This document shows positions 1-7,288 of a DNA stretch of 7,288 bases, piece by piece (the first letter of the stretch is position 1; each line of letters starts with the position of its first letter). The stretch lies in contig JAUUZB010000168.1 of the NCBI GenBank assembly GCA_030590185.1, positions 1 through 7,288 of the forward strand, written 5' to 3'. Both the position numbers and the translations under genes were made by a program. The DNA comes from Deltaproteobacteria bacterium. Lineage in GTDB: Bacteria > Myxococcota > XYA12-FULL-58-9 > JAUUZB01. Under the pieces are notes generated by a model that had not been told where the DNA came from, made no database searches, and was given only the letters and a program-made list of their open reading frames with translations.

Positions 1-1929
1 ACCCTGCGCACGGAGGTCAGCTGGTTGGTCGGCGCCATGAAGAAGATCGGCGCCAAGGTGACCACCGCCTACCGGGCCGCGGTCAAGGGACACAAAACCA
101 AAAACATCAAAAAGCGCATCAAGCTCTTCCATCAGGCGGGCGTCGGGTTCAAAACCTGCGCCACCGCCATCAGCGAGCTGGAGTCGGACAAGCTCTACGC
201 GCCGACCAAGCGCTTCAAGACCCGCCTCGGCACGATGAACATCACCGACACCAAGCGCAAATGCCTGCAGCTCTCCAAGCAGGCCAGGGACCAGGTCGCC
301 GCAATGACCTGGTACCAAAGCGTCGACGAGGTTGTCTCCGAGGTCAATACCGCCATCGCCCGTCTGCGGACCCCCCGGGACGCCACCGCGGAGCTGGAAT
401 ACGCCCGGAACGCCACTGAGGTCCTAGCGAAGTGCAGCGTCGAGCTGGCCAAGACCAACCGGCAGGAGGGCTACGACCCGAAGCGGAGCTTTGAGACCCT
501 CCTCGGCGAGATCAGCGCGCCAAAGCTGATCAAGGCCTGCACGAAGGAGAAAGCCAAGATCACCAAGAAGCTGCCTCAAATCGAGTGGCGCACCAAGCTC
601 GCCACCGTGCAGGCGCGCCTCGACGAGGTCGCCGAGCTCACCGCCGCGGCCAACGAAGCCACCAAGGGGGCAATCAAGGCGGGCAAGCTCGAGCAGGCGG
701 TGGGTGGTCTGCGCGAGTGCCAGAGCGAGGCCAAGGCCCTCGGCAAGAAGAAGAGCGCCGACCGCAATCTCAAGATCACCACCGCCTTCGGCAAGCTGAC
801 CATCAACGCCATCGAGAAGCTGTGCATCGAGCAACGCAAGGAGGCCGAGAAGCGCCTGATGGCGGCGATCAAGCAGCGCGACGCCGAGGGCTTTGCCAAG
901 GATGCCAAGGGTGACGAGAAGGATGTCATCCGCCGCGAGGGCGTGCCATCCCGGATCGAGCCGTTCGCGGGCGGTCGGATCTTCATCTACGAGCGCTTCA
1001 ACAAACGAGGGACCAAGGAGCTCAAGCGCTACGGCTTTGACGCTCGGGGCAAACGGGTCGATTACTGGGTGGAGTGGCGCAACCAGGTGGTCGGCGTGGT
1101 CTCGGAGCTCGCCCGGGTGCTCGCCGGCGTGGAGGACGCCGCGACCGCGGTACAAATGTACGAGTCAGTCGAGGCCGCCATGCCGGTGCTCGACATCTGC
1201 AAGGAGGTCCTCTCCAGCTCCAAGACAAACCCGGGCTATGACGCCAAGGCCTCCTTCACCACACCCCTCGGCAAGCTCACCGCCGATAAGCTGGCCAAGG
1301 CCTGCGTTGCGGAGCGGGCCAAGATGGTCGGCGACCTGTCCGCCATCCGCTGGCACTCCAAGGCGGAGCAGCTGCGCAACCGGGTCAACGACGTCCAGGA
1401 TCTGCTCACCAGGGCCGCCGGTGTTCGGGACCCGGACAAGCGGATCGACGCCATCAGCAAGGCGGCGGGCGGTCTCGAGGAGTGCGTGGAGCGCACCACC
1501 ATCCTCCCCAAGCAGAAGGGGGCCGACCCGGGCTTCAAGCTCGACACGGTCTACGGGGAGCTCTCCATGGATGAGCTCAAGGCCGCCTGCACGACGATGC
1601 TCGAGGACGCCAGGGACCAAACCAAGCAGGCGATCAAGGACAAGGAAGTCGCCAAGTTCGTCACCAAGTGCCGCGCCGATGAAATCGAGGTCGCCTGGCG
1701 CGAGGGCATCCCCGACAAGGTGATCACCTTCGGCACCAAGCGGGTCTTCGTCTACAACCTGGCGGCGGGCAGCAAGACCAAGACCAAGCGCTACGCCTTC
1801 AACGCCCAGGGCACGCGTATCAACGAGGCGGCGATTCTGGCCGATCTCTCCATCGAGCCGGAGATCATCGAAATCGACGAGGGCGGGGACCTACCGCTGC
1901 CCGACCTCGAAATGCCGATCCCCAAGTAG
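1..1929 (+). CDS. Five-unit cysteine-pair repeat protein, function unknown (5' end missing)
   Basis: I do not recognise a named family. The frame is open to the left edge, so 642 residues are visible and the true start lies outside. Numbering here takes the TTG at 25 as residue 1. The protein is Lys/Ala/Glu-rich and mostly helical. Five units each carry two cysteines exactly 35 residues apart: C45/C80, C137/C172, C232/C267, C392/C427 and C487/C522. The core of a unit reads roughly S/K-F-x-T-x-L/F-G-x-L, then a helix holding the second Cys. Units 1, 2 and 4 end in a Trp (W96, W188, W443). Units 3 and 5 are followed by a short beta-rich module (about 300-347 and 553-600) of pattern R-E-G-V/I-P, I/V-F-I/V-Y, K-R-Y-x-F. 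The tail (605-634) is acidic and Pro-rich. The paired cysteines suggest disulfides and hence export, but no signal peptide is visible because the N-terminus is missing. The beta module loosely recalls BamE/SmpA-like motifs; I hold that weakly. The gene ends 4 bases from a converging gene. Confidence 0.85.
   Translation, partial: TLRTEVSWLVGAMKKIGAKVTTAYRAAVKGHKTKNIKKRIKLFHQAGVGFKTCATAISELESDKLYAPTKRFKTRLGTMNITDTKRKCLQLSKQARDQVAAMTWYQSVDEVVSEVNTAIARLRTPRDATAELEYARNATEVLAKCSVELAKTNRQEGYDPKRSFETLLGEISAPKLIKACTKEKAKITKKLPQIEWRTKLATVQARLDEVAELTAAANEATKGAIKAGKLEQAVGGLRECQSEAKALGKKKSADRNLKITTAFGKLTINAIEKLCIEQRKEAEKRLMAAIKQRDAEGFAKDAKGDEKDVIRREGVPSRIEPFAGGRIFIYERFNKRGTKELKRYGFDARGKRVDYWVEWRNQVVGVVSELARVLAGVEDAATAVQMYESVEAAMPVLDICKEVLSSSKTNPGYDAKASFTTPLGKLTADKLAKACVAERAKMVGDLSAIRWHSKAEQLRNRVNDVQDLLTRAAGVRDPDKRIDAISKAAGGLEECVERTTILPKQKGADPGFKLDTVYGELSMDELKAACTTMLEDARDQTKQAIKDKEVAKFVTKCRADEIEVAWREGIPDKVITFGTKRVFVYNLAAGSKTKTKRYAFNAQGTRINEAAILADLSIEPEIIEIDEGGDLPLPDLEMPIPK
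310..1074 (+). repeat. Protein-level tandem repeat, block A (255 residues)
   Basis: Residues 96-350 of the cysteine-pair protein: Trp, unit 2, Trp, unit 3, beta module. Every landmark recurs exactly 255 residues later in block B: W96/W351, C137/C392, C172/C427, W188/W443, C232/C487, C267/C522, P308/P563 and Y322/Y577. By hand count, 20 of 39 residues match between 150-188 and 405-443; the second halves are less alike. The DNA copies are diverged, so this is an old duplication. Confidence 0.75.
1075..1839 (+). repeat. Protein-level tandem repeat, block B (255 residues)
   Basis: Residues 351-605 of the cysteine-pair protein: Trp, unit 4, Trp, unit 5, beta module. It is the second copy of block A and follows it directly. 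Register holds without a gap from the first Trp to the Tyr of the beta module and slips by one residue near its end (Y336 versus Y590). Confidence 0.75.
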
Positions 1930-3028: not shown

Positions 3029-3241
3029 ATGTCCCTGTTGAAGCCAAAAGAACGCCGCCGACGCGCCAAGGGCGGTTCCTGCTGTTGTTGCCGCCAGACC
3101 TTCCGCTTTTGTTGGACCTGCGCCTGCGGGTTCACGATCTGCCAGGCCTGCATGGACGCGAACCTCTGGGGCATGACCTGCAACTTCATCACCTGGGCCT
3201 GTCCCGATTGCGGCGCCAGTAACGGCTTCGGCAATCAGTGA
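3029..3241 (+). CDS. Small cysteine-rich, probably zinc-binding protein
   Basis: A 70-residue protein with 12 cysteines and a basic N-terminus (K-P-K-E-R-R-R-R). Four C-x2-C pairs are visible: C18/C21, C28/C31, C38/C41 and C58/C61, with further cysteines at 19, 20, 33 and 51. Eight paired cysteines fit two zinc sites, possibly interleaved as in RING or FYVE-like folds. The central W-G-M-T-C and C-terminal C-P-D-C-G and G-F-G-N-Q segments look like conserved family motifs, but I cannot name the family. There is no signal peptide or membrane helix, so a cytoplasmic protein is expected; the arginines could touch nucleic acid or a partner. The frame is open back to 2876, but that longer start overlaps the divergent HEAT gene and adds low-complexity sequence without cysteine clusters, so I chose the ATG at 3029. 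The ribosome binding site is weak. It is divergent from the HEAT gene, which also ends in a zinc-ribbon module; any link is speculative. Confidence 0.8.
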   Translation: MSLLKPKERRRRAKGGSCCCCRQTFRFCWTCACGFTICQACMDANLWGMTCNFITWACPDCGASNGFGNQ

Positions 3242-3281: not shown

Positions 3282-3311
3282 CTGACGCCGGGGTCAGATC
3301 CGTGTCATCAT
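3282..3311 (+). promoter_or_regulatory. Candidate promoter with overlapping near-palindrome, HU operon
   Basis: CTGACG (3282-3287) resembles a -35 box and CATCAT (3306-3311) a -10 box, each matching 4 of 6 consensus bases with an 18-base spacer. Transcription would start about 20 bases before the HU gene's ATG. The -35 overlaps the near-palindrome CTGACGCCGGGGTCAG (3282-3297), in which 7 of 8 pairs match, a plausible repressor site. In such GC-rich DNA, boxes this weak can occur by chance. Confidence 0.3.
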
Positions 3312-3338: not shown

Positions 3339-3623
3339 ATGCTCACCGACGACGTGATAGCGGAGCTGGCGAAGCGCTTGGAGATCACGCCCCGGGAGGC
3401 GCGAGAGCAACTCAACCTCGTTACCCAGGCGCTCCGCGACAAACTGGAAAAAGCTGAGCCGTTCGCGATCCCAGGCCTGGGCGGCTTCGAGATCAAGACC
3501 CGACCCGAGACCCGCGGCTTCGTGCCGTTCCTGCGCCGCTTCGCGTTGCTGCCCCCCAAAGATCGGGTCCTGTTTCGGCCGAGCAAACGCCTGCGCGACA
3601 TGGCCAAGAAATTTGGGTGGTGA
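3339..3623 (+). CDS. Small HU/IHF-like DNA-binding protein
   Basis: A 94-residue protein, the usual size of HU/IHF subunits. Residues 1-40 form the two-helix N-terminal dimerisation region (L-T-D-D-V-I-A-E-L-A-K-R-L). The P-G-L-G-G-F-E turn at 45-51 matches the G-x-G-x-F hallmark at the start of the sheet, and V-L-F-R-P-S-K-R-L-R at 77-86 matches the C-terminal F-x-P-S/G-K-x-L segment. Between them, residues 52-76 should be the DNA-binding arm, but it lacks the canonical R-N-P motif and reads R-P-E-T-R-G-F-V-P instead, so this is a divergent clade rather than classical HU. The frame opens at a TTG at 3312, but the ATG at 3339 has G-rich sequence upstream and gives the normal family N-terminus. 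It lies 3 bases before the next gene, which also starts with an HU-like domain, so the two may form a heterodimer (inference). Confidence 0.88.
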   Translation: MLTDDVIAELAKRLEITPREAREQLNLVTQALRDKLEKAEPFAIPGLGGFEIKTRPETRGFVPFLRRFALLPPKDRVLFRPSKRLRDMAKKFGW

Positions 3624-3626
3624 GTG

Positions 3627-4718
3627 ATGGCCAGCAAGCAGAGCTTCTCCCAGCTCAGCGCTGAGCTGGCGGCCGCCACTCGGTTGGAGGAAAGGGAAAC
3701 CCAGGCGCTGTTGCGCGGGCTCGCCGACGTGGTGCAGCTCGGCTTGCTGCGGGACGGGCACGTGCGGATCGGTCGGTTGGGGCTCTTCAAGCTCAAGCGG
3801 CTCAAGGCCCGCCGGGGCCGCAACCCGCACACCGGTGAGCCGATGGAGATCGCCAACCGCTGCCGGGTGGTGTTCGTGCCCCTGCGCTCCTTGCGCCGGG
3901 CGGTGAACCAACGGTTCGAGCACTTGACCTATGAGCCGCTCGACGCGGTCGACGAGGCGGCGCGTGCCATTCACGTACGGGGCGCCTACACCGACGGAGA
4001 ACGCATTCGGGTGGAGGACCGGGACGGGGGGGGCACGGCCAGGCCGCTCACCGCAAGGGCGGAACGCCGCCATCGGGCGCTCTGGTTGGTGGGCGCCGCC
4101 GCCGGACTGGTATTGATCGGCGCGCTTTTTTTTGGCTGGCCAAGGGACGAGCCGACGCAACGGGAGGTGGATGTGGTGACACCAGCGGCGGTGGCCGAGT
4201 CCGCGCCGCCGGCGGTGGCGGTTGAGCCGCAGCAACCGGAGACGGTCGAGCCGGCACGGCCGGAGGCTGTAGAGCCAACGCGGCCAGAGGTTGTAGAGCC
4301 GACGCGGCCGGAGGCGGCAGAGCCAACCCAACCGGAGGCTGTAGAGCCAACGCGACAGGCGGCGGCAGAGCCGACGCCAATCGATGATTCCGCCCGTGCG
4401 GAGACGCCCGGCCAGCGCCACCGGATCACCCCCGGCACCACCCTGTCGAAGCTCGCGGACCGGTACTACGGTCGCCTGGCGCTGTGGCCGCTGATCTTCG
4501 CCGCCAACCGCGACCAGCTTCGCAGCCCGGACGCACTCGAGGTAGGTGACGAGCTGCTCATCCCCAGGCTCGCGACCTCCCCCCACGACTTGAGCCCACC
4601 CGACCGGGCGCGAGTCGCCGCCGCCTACCGGGCCGTCCACGAGTTCTACGCCAGCCGCGACGATCGACGGGCGGGGCGCTACCTGACCGCCGCCGAGCGC
4701 TTCGTCCAACCAAACTGA
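3627..4718 (+). CDS. HU/IHF-like domain - membrane helix - LysM protein
   Basis: A 363-residue protein joining a DNA-binding domain to a cell-wall-binding domain. Residues 5-96 are HU/IHF-like: N-terminal helices, an R-I-G-R-L-G-L-F turn (about 47-54) and a canonical arm motif G-R-N-P-H-T-G-E (64-71) with the intercalating proline at 67. After a charged stretch ending in R-A-E-R-R-H-R, a single membrane helix spans about 151-171; the arginines before it put the HU domain in the cytoplasm. A Pro/Glu repeat linker (199-251) follows. LysM is at 265-314 (G-T-T-L-S-K-L-A-D-R-Y-Y-G, A-A-N, L-E-V-G-D-E-L-L-I-P), expected to bind peptidoglycan in the periplasm. A helical tail (about 320-360) ends the protein. 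GGGTGG at 3615-3620 sits 6 bases before the ATG, favouring it over the GTG at 3624. It forms an operon with the small HU gene. The inferred role is tethering DNA to the cell wall or sensing the envelope. From memory, HU-like domains linked through a membrane helix to the wall-binding SPOR domain are known in Bacteroidetes, a precedent for this arrangement. Confidence 0.92.
   Translation: MASKQSFSQLSAELAAATRLEERETQALLRGLADVVQLGLLRDGHVRIGRLGLFKLKRLKARRGRNPHTGEPMEIANRCRVVFVPLRSLRRAVNQRFEHLTYEPLDAVDEAARAIHVRGAYTDGERIRVEDRDGGGTARPLTARAERRHRALWLVGAAAGLVLIGALFFGWPRDEPTQREVDVVTPAAVAESAPPAVAVEPQQPETVEPARPEAVEPTRPEVVEPTRPEAAEPTQPEAVEPTRQAAAEPTPIDDSARAETPGQRHRITPGTTLSKLADRYYGRLALWPLIFAANRDQLRSPDALEVGDELLIPRLATSPHDLSPPDRARVAAAYRAVHEFYASRDDRRAGRYLTAAERFVQPN
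4221..4379 (+). repeat. 24-bp tandem repeat coding for a Pro/Glu linker
   Basis: About 6.6 imperfect copies of a 24-bp unit, each coding for eight residues of pattern V/A-E-P-T-R-P-E-A. Copies differ at several bases each. They lie in the periplasmic linker between the membrane helix and LysM, and whole-unit gain or loss keeps the frame, so linker length may vary between strains. Confidence 0.85.
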
Positions 4719-5843: not shown

Positions 5844-7288
5844 TCAACGCCCCCGCGGCCCGAGCTCGACCCGCAGGGTCTGCACCAGGTCAGGCGGCAA
5901 CGGCTGCGGCGGCGCTTCGTTCAGATCGAAGTCGCCGATCACCGGTGGCTGCCCGAGCAGGAACTCCATCCACTTCTCGCGCACCCGGACGCTCCGGTAC
6001 AGGATCGGATCGCCGGTGCCGTCGAGCAGGGGATAGAACACCTGCACCTTGCCCTCCGGCGTGGTCGGGTCGAAACGCTCGGCCAACGAGCCGTGTCGCT
6101 CGACCCGGCCGATGCGTTGCTCGAGATCGGTTGGGCTCCAGCGCAGATCGTAGTGGACGATGCGCCGGCACTGGCGGTGCAAGTCGAGCCCCTGTTGGAT
6201 CGCCTGGTTGCCGATCAGGATCAGGGGAAAGAAGGGCGCGTTGAAGGCGTTCTGACGCGCCGTGCGTGAAGCGGCGGTGAGGCTGGTCTGTACTACCCGC
6301 GGCGAGCGCATCATGTCGCGCAGCACCTCGACCTGTTCCGCCGGAGTCAAGCAGGGCAAGTAGGCGAGCAGCTCAGCGACCTTATCGCGCCATGGGCAGT
6401 CGTCCTGCGCCCACCACAGCTCGATGGCCTCCCGCAGCTGCGCCGAGGAGATCCCCTCGCTGCTGCCGAGACGCTCGAGCAACTCCGCGAGGAAGGAGAC
6501 CTCGCGACGCGTCAAATAGTAACGCACCGCCTCGATGATCAGCACCCGCACCTCCGGCGGGAACTGCGCGAGCTCGCCCCGCAGGCCAAACCAAATCCCG
6601 GGCCGGCGGGGACGCAGGATGGTGTTGAAGGTGGCGCGGCTGATGCTCCAGCTCACCTTTTTGGTACCGCGATTCGCCGGCGCGGGGTTTTCGAGGGACA
6701 GGCCGCGTTCTGGGTAGCCCGCGTCGAGCAGGGTCTTGGCCGCGCCGCCGTTTGCCTCGAGGCGCAGGCGCTCGACCTTGGATCGATGGTTGTCGAACCA
6801 GAGCGCCACCGCCTGGTCGATGCAGCGGCTGGCGAGCGCATAGTCGAGCCGACTCGCCGCACCTGGAGTCACCCGTTGGCGCTTGAGGATCCGGTTGGCC
6901 TGGTCGAGGAGTGTCCCGCTCGCCTGCCAAAACTCATGGCTAAACTCAGAGGTGTGTTCCGCTGGAATCAGGGTATCGTAGGGCAGGCACTCGACGAGGG
7001 AGAGGGAGAGCTCATCGGAGCCGCGGGAGAAGCGCGGTGGAAGTTTTTCCCCCAGCCCGCGGGCTCGACTCGCGCCGGTGCCGCCCCCGAAGATTTCCTC
7101 GAAGGAGGCCCCGGGGCAGACGCGGTTCCAGTTCTCGACCTGGAGCTTCTGCCAAGCTTTTTCGATCCCCTGCTGCAGGACGCGAATCGTGGCGGTGCGC
7201 TCGCAGAAGATGAGGGTCTTCTCGCCGCGTTCGGCGGCGCTGACCACCTCGTTGAGCACGTGCTGGATCTTCGGGTGGGGGCTACCCA
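5844..7288 (-). CDS. SF2/SNF2-like helicase, C-terminal part (5' end missing)
   Basis: The frame is open to the right edge; 480 residues are visible, and the Walker A and DEAD/DEAH region would lie outside. Numbering takes the GTG at 7259 as residue 1. The second RecA-like lobe is recognisable: K-T-L-I-F-C-E-R (14-21) as motif IV, Q-Q-G-L-D-L-H (355-361) as motif V, and E-Q-R-I-G-R-V-E-R-H-G (380-390) as motif VI with its arginine finger. Between them V-H-Y-D-L-R-W-S-P (368-376) is typical of SNF2/RapA- and DrmD-like translocases, which use ATP to move along duplex DNA or remodel bound proteins. Motifs IV and V are about 333 residues apart, far more than usual, so a large mostly helical, Trp-rich insert (about 60-320) splits the lobe. 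A conserved-looking tail follows motif VI (V-Q-V-F-Y-P, R-V-R-E-K-W-M-E-F). No nuclease or methylase motif is visible in this part. The gene is followed 5 bases later by the PH-like membrane protein gene. Confidence 0.9.
   Translation of the reverse strand, partial: GSPHPKIQHVLNEVVSAAERGEKTLIFCERTATIRVLQQGIEKAWQKLQVENWNRVCPGASFEEIFGGGTGASRARGLGEKLPPRFSRGSDELSLSLVECLPYDTLIPAEHTSEFSHEFWQASGTLLDQANRILKRQRVTPGAASRLDYALASRCIDQAVALWFDNHRSKVERLRLEANGGAAKTLLDAGYPERGLSLENPAPANRGTKKVSWSISRATFNTILRPRRPGIWFGLRGELAQFPPEVRVLIIEAVRYYLTRREVSFLAELLERLGSSEGISSAQLREAIELWWAQDDCPWRDKVAELLAYLPCLTPAEQVEVLRDMMRSPRVVQTSLTAASRTARQNAFNAPFFPLILIGNQAIQQGLDLHRQCRRIVHYDLRWSPTDLEQRIGRVERHGSLAERFDPTTPEGKVQVFYPLLDGTGDPILYRSVRVREKWMEFLLGQPPVIGDFDLNEAPPQPLPPDLVQTLRVELGPRGR

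Follow-up and report, generated by a model that had tools for sequence, protein, structure and literature searches.

A small HU gene, followed on the same strand by a gene joining an HU domain, a single hydrophobic helix and a LysM domain, is encoded in the window (the whole 7,288-nt stretch of DNA analysed here, GC 66%), and a matching adjacent pair is found in four out of four Bacteroidales records. The pair looks like a conserved candidate chromosome-to-wall tether, not a one-off. According to the proposed function, the small HU would pair in the cytoplasm with its counterpart domain in the large protein, giving an IHF-like dimer that would contact DNA; the single helix would fix the large subunit in the inner membrane and LysM would reach peptidoglycan on a flexible Pro/Glu linker. 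The outcome, in which the two HUs are connected across the inner membrane with peptidoglycan and the complex keeps chromosomal DNA at the envelope, is a plausible reading to which we give slightly less than an even chance.

The large protein is read from one open frame of 363 aa (3627-4718, plus strand, as for all its features given below), which starts at ATG 3627 (alternative GTG 3624) and has a stop codon ending at 4718. The original prediction of HU, membrane helix and LysM within this frame holds. The HU domain (3648..3908, residues 8-94) reaches 63.5 bits with PF00216 (Bac_DNA_binding; cut-off 22.4, E 2.3e-17) and, from sequence and alignments, carries the canonical RNP arm motif of HU/IHF that had been claimed for it (GRNPHTGE, 3816..3839, residues 64-71, in the β-arm). 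The stretch just after the domain (3906..3923) contains N94 and F97, invariant in the alignment of five large proteins. The hydrophobic helix (4077..4133, residues 151-169), a predicted membrane helix on the basis of hydropathy and charges, is the sole segment of the protein above a mean hydropathy of 1.4, and its mean of 2.34 is reached in 5 out of 1000 shuffles of the protein. Arginines had been noted on its N-terminal side; RAERRHR indeed precedes it, with a net charge of +4 in the 15 residues N-terminal and of -2 in the 15 residues C-terminal of the helix. Residues 174-258 constitute a Pro/Glu-rich linker, mostly coded by a 24-bp tandem repeat of 6.9 copies (4213..4377, Tandem Repeats Finder). 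The LysM domain (4419..4565, residues 265-313), assigned by PF01476 and by the structural model, is barely above the Pfam cut-off (22.9 versus 20.9 bits, E 8.5e-5), and the precomputed Pfam list of the protein database gives PF00216 alone for this protein, without LysM. Two predicted C-terminal helices lie beyond LysM (4596..4706, residues 324-342 and 349-360; 10-residue means of 84-88 in the model). A frameshift or misassembly artefact was considered for this frame and found no support; the frame is single and open, and since its third-position GC is 0.71-0.93 by segment, i.e. coding-like all along, such an artefact is unlikely.

Modelling with AlphaFold2 (34 alignment rows) gives an HU fold at about residues 7-97 (10-residue means of 84-97), a helix at residues 143-168 with low to moderate confidence, and a β-α-α-β LysM at residues 262-313 (strands 262-266 and 309-313, helices 273-281 and 287-293; means of 84-90, final block 78). 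The original prediction had LysM matching its family well; the domain has the modelled fold and passes the cut-off by a narrow margin. In the Foldseek comparison with the PDB, all 24 rows at E ≤ 0.001 were HU, IHF or histone-like chains, or complexes so titled, and Kbp (LysM) chains appeared at E 0.05-0.2. For the LysM part, E. coli Kbp is the top solved-structure match (E 5.4e-6), a protein named as potassium-binding. The best NCBIfam models are IHF alpha at the N-terminus and NF008399, ‘peptidoglycan-binding protein LysM’, at the C-terminus, both far under their equivalog cut-offs. Sequence and model together fit a likely topology with HU inside and LysM outside.

The partner HU gene is real, as the original prediction assumed, and encodes a divergent HU of 94 aa (3339..3623, plus strand; PF00216, E 8.3e-14). 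Its stop codon ends at 3623, leaving 3 nt before the ATG of the large protein. The model shows an HU fold (mean pLDDT 93.5), for which Foldseek ranks HU/IHF chains first. In general, HU proteins work as dimers, with an arm proline serving to bend DNA. The RNP motif is absent from the partner (arm TRGFVPFLRR), but the proline column is retained and is invariant among the five aligned partners, i.e. that of the window and those of the Bacteroidales. Close to its end the window partner carries LLPPK...RPS; PPK occurs in five out of five partners versus none of 52 viral HU open frames, a viral set that was picked by an RNP-type arm. The five small HUs have net charges of +2 to +7. HU-CCDC81_bac_2 matches the window partner at 17 bits, far under its cut-off of 35. 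A terminator-like inverted repeat, with its T run on the minus strand, is located upstream of the partner gene (3282-3297); terminator-like sites number three in the region versus 1.4 in shuffles, and therefore are perhaps due to chance.

With IHF and HU (PF00216), the pair shares the HU fold, two different adjoining HU genes and, in the large one, the RNP arm. It differs by the helix and LysM borne by one subunit and by the degenerate arm of the partner, and it scores far under the NCBIfam equivalog cut-offs for IHF and HU. Proteins of the IHF type bend DNA at specific sites, and the same domain architecture would be compatible with a membrane-bound regulator, in which LysM would act as a wall sensor or bring the protein to the wall, and bending by the HU pair at a small number of promoters would give a transcriptional output instead of mechanical anchoring. 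DNA binding by such a protein would be in keeping with the strongly basic HU domain found in the window. However, a separate output domain was not found in the Pfam scan, neighbouring genes differ between the window and the Bacteroidales, and neither trees nor gene order separate a regulator from a tether. On balance, a regulator is unlikely.

The Bacteroidales relatives come from a plasmid collection. When this was searched with the large protein by tblastn at E ≤ 1, 63 records were obtained; the 40 matches listed cover the C-terminal part alone (residue 228 onwards), and those in Bacteroides finegoldii and Phocaeicola massiliensis lie in proteins that contain an HU domain and a membrane helix as well. 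The Bacteroides protein as query gave 489 records, where the first four among the 40 listed are Bacteroidales and the other 36 are HU only. With the Parabacteroides protein, the nine records found are the same four Bacteroidales plus five HU-only records, and with the Prevotella protein (50 records) the same four come first among the 12 listed. From the side of the partner, tblastn of the small HU of the window gave 394 records in the same collection; the Bacteroides finegoldii partner was listed first at E 8e-8, and the remainder of the 40 matches listed reached 1e-5 at best.

A small HU gene and then a larger HU–helix–LysM-like gene occur in each of the four records (Bacteroides, Phocaeicola, Parabacteroides and Prevotella), always in the order rimO, small HU, large HU protein on one strand, with a spacing of -8 to +31 nt between the two HU genes. 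The pairs are annotated in two records, both under the sole name ‘HU family DNA-binding protein’ (e.g. WP_007758232.1 and WP_022275144.1 from Bacteroides finegoldii), and were read from open frames in the other two. The annotated records have ftsY before rimO, and AAA ATPase, DUF58 and VWA genes after the pair; in the two others, RimO is above the NCBIfam cut-off in both and FtsY in one, the other FtsY-like frame being recognized by eye. All four records are filed as plasmids; as they carry ftsY and rimO, and one of them measures 1.77 Mb, they are probably chromosomal pieces. In the Parabacteroides distasonis and Prevotella records, open frames of ∼185 aa encode further HU-like proteins extended at both ends. 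The original prediction had proposed a search for proteins of the same domain order and for their neighbours, and had held a LysM version with a partner HU to be uncommon. The search returned these four pairs after rimO, with neighbours other than those of the window, and rarity is not supported, given a matching adjacent pair in every one of the four records, albeit with a weaker LysM. Likeness to the window thus consists of a small HU and then a large protein with HU, one helix and a LysM-like end, on the same strand; flanking genes (ftsY and rimO before, AAA ATPase, DUF58 and VWA after) are replaced by others in the window, and the position after ftsY–rimO was treated as lineage context, not as a defining criterion of the pair.

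The large proteins of the window and of Bacteroides finegoldii share 27% identity over 100 aa in the HU part and the following stretch and 29% over 135 aa in the linker and LysM, and the small HUs share 32% over 87 aa. Each of the five large proteins has exactly one strong hydrophobic segment, which lies between HU and the LysM region. The positive-inside signal is present in the window, but weak or absent in the Bacteroidales relatives. With Pfam LysM, the Bacteroides, Phocaeicola and Prevotella proteins score 20.1, 14.7 and (partial match) 16.3 bits, respectively, and that of Parabacteroides has no match at E ≤ 1; none of the four reaches the cut-off of 20.9, and among the five proteins it is the window LysM that scores highest with Pfam. 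NF008399 matches the C-terminus of three of the four (E 5.2e-7, 5e-9 and 1.8e-6), far below its equivalog cut-off; the Prevotella large protein has no such match at E ≤ 0.01, and its LysM is doubtful. Beyond LysM, the Bacteroidales proteins stop shortly or diverge, and they lack C-terminal helices comparable with the two of the window.

The HU domains and linkers of the large proteins differ as well. Arms in the Bacteroidales read VNVNTGE, IHVNTGE or VDVNTGE, the arm proline being absent from all four, and the net charge of the HU domain is -3 to +1 versus +11 in the window (mean of 4.6 over 47 viral HUs, which span -1 to 12). The cytoplasmic linker comprises 112-188 residues with 35-52 Asp+Glu in the four relatives, whereas that of the window is 55 residues long and charge-balanced. 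In summary, a long acidic linker, a near-neutral HU without RNP and a LysM under the cut-off set the Bacteroidales large protein apart from that of the window. Judged from these sequences, DNA binding by the HU domain of the large protein would not be clearly conserved. Given the missing proline and the net charges, either subunit may be the one that contacts DNA; in some members of the family this role may fall to the partner, or to both proteins together.

The same differences in arm, charge and linker make scaffolding a serious rival. The HU fold of the large protein would then serve mainly for pairing, with the partner or other proteins, and the complex would organize a site at the envelope (pole or septum) in the manner of HubP/FimV. 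Besides large HU domains devoid of arm proline and positive charge, the long acidic cytoplasmic linkers of the Bacteroidales would suit such a role, since HubP/FimV cytoplasmic domains are likewise described as long and acidic (PMC12918733). The window version, however, is basic, has an RNP arm and a short, charge-balanced linker, and a scaffold is improbable overall. HubP also lends the tether an analogy. In Vibrio cholerae, it is a single-helix protein whose periplasmic LysM is reported to be both necessary and sufficient for targeting to the pole; the protein also binds ParA1 (PMC8789113). HubP thus illustrates how a complex linked to the chromosome can be positioned by a protein with one helix and LysM in the periplasm. 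HubP/FimV and the large protein of the window have in common a single membrane helix, a LysM on the periplasmic side and a cytoplasmic region linked with positioning of the chromosome, the latter two features being predicted for the window; the HubP/FimV cytoplasmic region consists of an acidic part with a TPR end (PMC8789113) and has no HU. FimV and TPR families have no match in the large protein of the window at E ≤ 1 (Pfam, NCBIfam).

Descent was approached with an HU tree of 95 columns and 60 rows, to which the five pairs contribute 10, viral contigs 47 and other sources three. With all rows, the large HU domains form one clade (98/81) and the small HUs another (90/82). In repeat trees, computed with a plainer model and HU parts trimmed to 94 aa, one window row was omitted each time; the clade of large HUs has 97/87 without the window partner, and the clade of partners 100/95 without the window large HU. 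Profiles are less favourable. In a profile of the four Bacteroidales large HUs, the window large HU ranks 12th (105 aa) or 23rd (94 aa) of 60, outranked by ordinary viral HUs, and in the profile of Bacteroidales partners the window small HU ranks 21st of 60. When phmmer is started from the window small HU, the Bacteroidales partners come 2nd, 3rd, 4th and 6th of 60, after the query itself; started from the window large HU, the first Bacteroidales row comes 2nd (105 aa) or 7th (94 aa). We read this as pointing to a shared module, with good support on the side of the partner and moderate support on that of the large protein. Separate origins, where the HU–helix–LysM protein of the window would be an independent fusion convergent with that of the Bacteroidales, would be compatible with any function. 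The long branches of the window rows in the tree (1.72 and 2.91), their poor profile ranks, and the differences in linkers, LysM strength and tails point in this direction. Yet both window HUs group with their counterparts in the trees, also when the other window row is omitted, the first three non-self phmmer matches of the window partner among the 60 HU rows are Bacteroidales partners, and gene order and orientation agree. Accordingly, convergence is given a low probability.

Returning to the chromosome-to-wall tether, what is observed in its favour is HU, helix and LysM in one frame, the adjoining partner, and an order and strand common to all four Bacteroidales records. Both tree clades, the GRNP arm with a net charge of +11 in the large HU of the window, and the agreement of its helix with the positive-inside rule further suggest it, and the periplasmic LysM of HubP on a one-helix protein argues for it by analogy. 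Against it are the Bacteroidales large HUs with neither arm proline nor positive charge, their LysM under the Pfam cut-off in four cases out of four, the poor profile ranks, the positive-inside signal that is weak or absent in relatives, and Kbp as the best structural match of LysM. The inferred part of this reading is a heterodimer that would bind DNA, with a predicted topology of N-terminus in and C-terminus out, and that may bind peptidoglycan and act as a tether.

Other searches delimit where relatives occur. A word-based protein search with the full large protein found its own protein only among the 7996 candidates scored, out of at least as many, as did residues 1-150 at E ≤ 0.01 (2813 candidates); with linkers removed, two weak matches besides self appeared at E ≤ 10 among the 7993 candidates scored, again out of at least as many, an HU+GrpB protein and a LysM protein. 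These searches require shared exact words and missed the Bacteroidales proteins; to conclude ‘no relative’ from them would have been a mistake. In viral contigs, three scans gave no relative. An HU-arm pattern matched at least 120 stretches there, corresponding to 52 HU loci, and none of the 52 open frames (82-195 aa, top 19-residue hydropathy 1.47; by eye and hydropathy) resembles the large protein. Two more scans of viral contigs yielded one locus each, a 92-aa HU and a 90-aa HU. Phages gave no tblastn match at E ≤ 1e-5, and scans of genome contigs with the membrane neighbour and with the helicase piece found no relative. Burroughs et al. 2017 reportedly described an HU-like domain joined to the peptidoglycan-binding SPOR domain (HU-CCDC81 type). 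In the window large protein, SPOR has no match at E ≤ 1 (Pfam) and HU-CCDC81_bac_2 is absent from the Pfam matches. That work is cited in PMC5906684. In the open-licence literature searched, no paper was recognized as being on an HU–LysM protein; HU and LysM are named in two different genes of a table in PMC10434189, and PMC13114119 concerns another LysM protein.

The window contains no Rfam family (gathering cut-offs) and no tRNA. A 634-aa Lys/Ala-rich protein with what look by eye like internal repeats is encoded at 1-1929 (plus strand), with no Pfam or NCBIfam family at E ≤ 0.1. On the minus strand, 1934-2911 encodes HEAT repeats; two hydrophobic segments come next, and the end weakly resembles a zinc ribbon. 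A small Cys-rich frame of 70 aa with several CxxC motifs (3029-3241, plus strand) has no PHROGs match, and neither plasmids (E ≤ 0.01) nor a viral scan gave a relative; a longer frame around it has a weak Pfam match only. Finally, 5844-7286 (minus strand) encodes the C-terminal part of a large helicase that runs past the window end. DISARM/Dpd-type and PADLOC PDC-M27C/ZacC models match this C-terminal part only, and a relative 44% identical over 99% of its length is located at an unlisted-gene site on a Methylocystis plasmid. A defence link between the helicase and the HU module was rejected; the DISARM/Dpd-type match is confined to the C-terminal helicase part, and the gene lies on the opposite strand.

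To our knowledge, attachment of the nucleoid to the envelope beyond the Par/HubP systems is an open question. A dedicated tether, consisting of an IHF-like heterodimer with one subunit crossing the membrane to peptidoglycan, kept as a module of two neighbouring genes both in Bacteroidales and in the high-GC lineage of the window, and independent of ParABS/HubP-type anchors, would be one answer, though a rather doubtful one. If the tether is true, one chain would join DNA, the inner membrane and the cell wall, and Bacteroides would provide a laboratory system for testing. The arrangement is already present in annotated records, and common bacteria of gut and mouth carry a matching pair. Thus, what seemed an odd single protein is apparently part of a conserved gene pair, labelled in records only as ‘HU family DNA-binding protein’.
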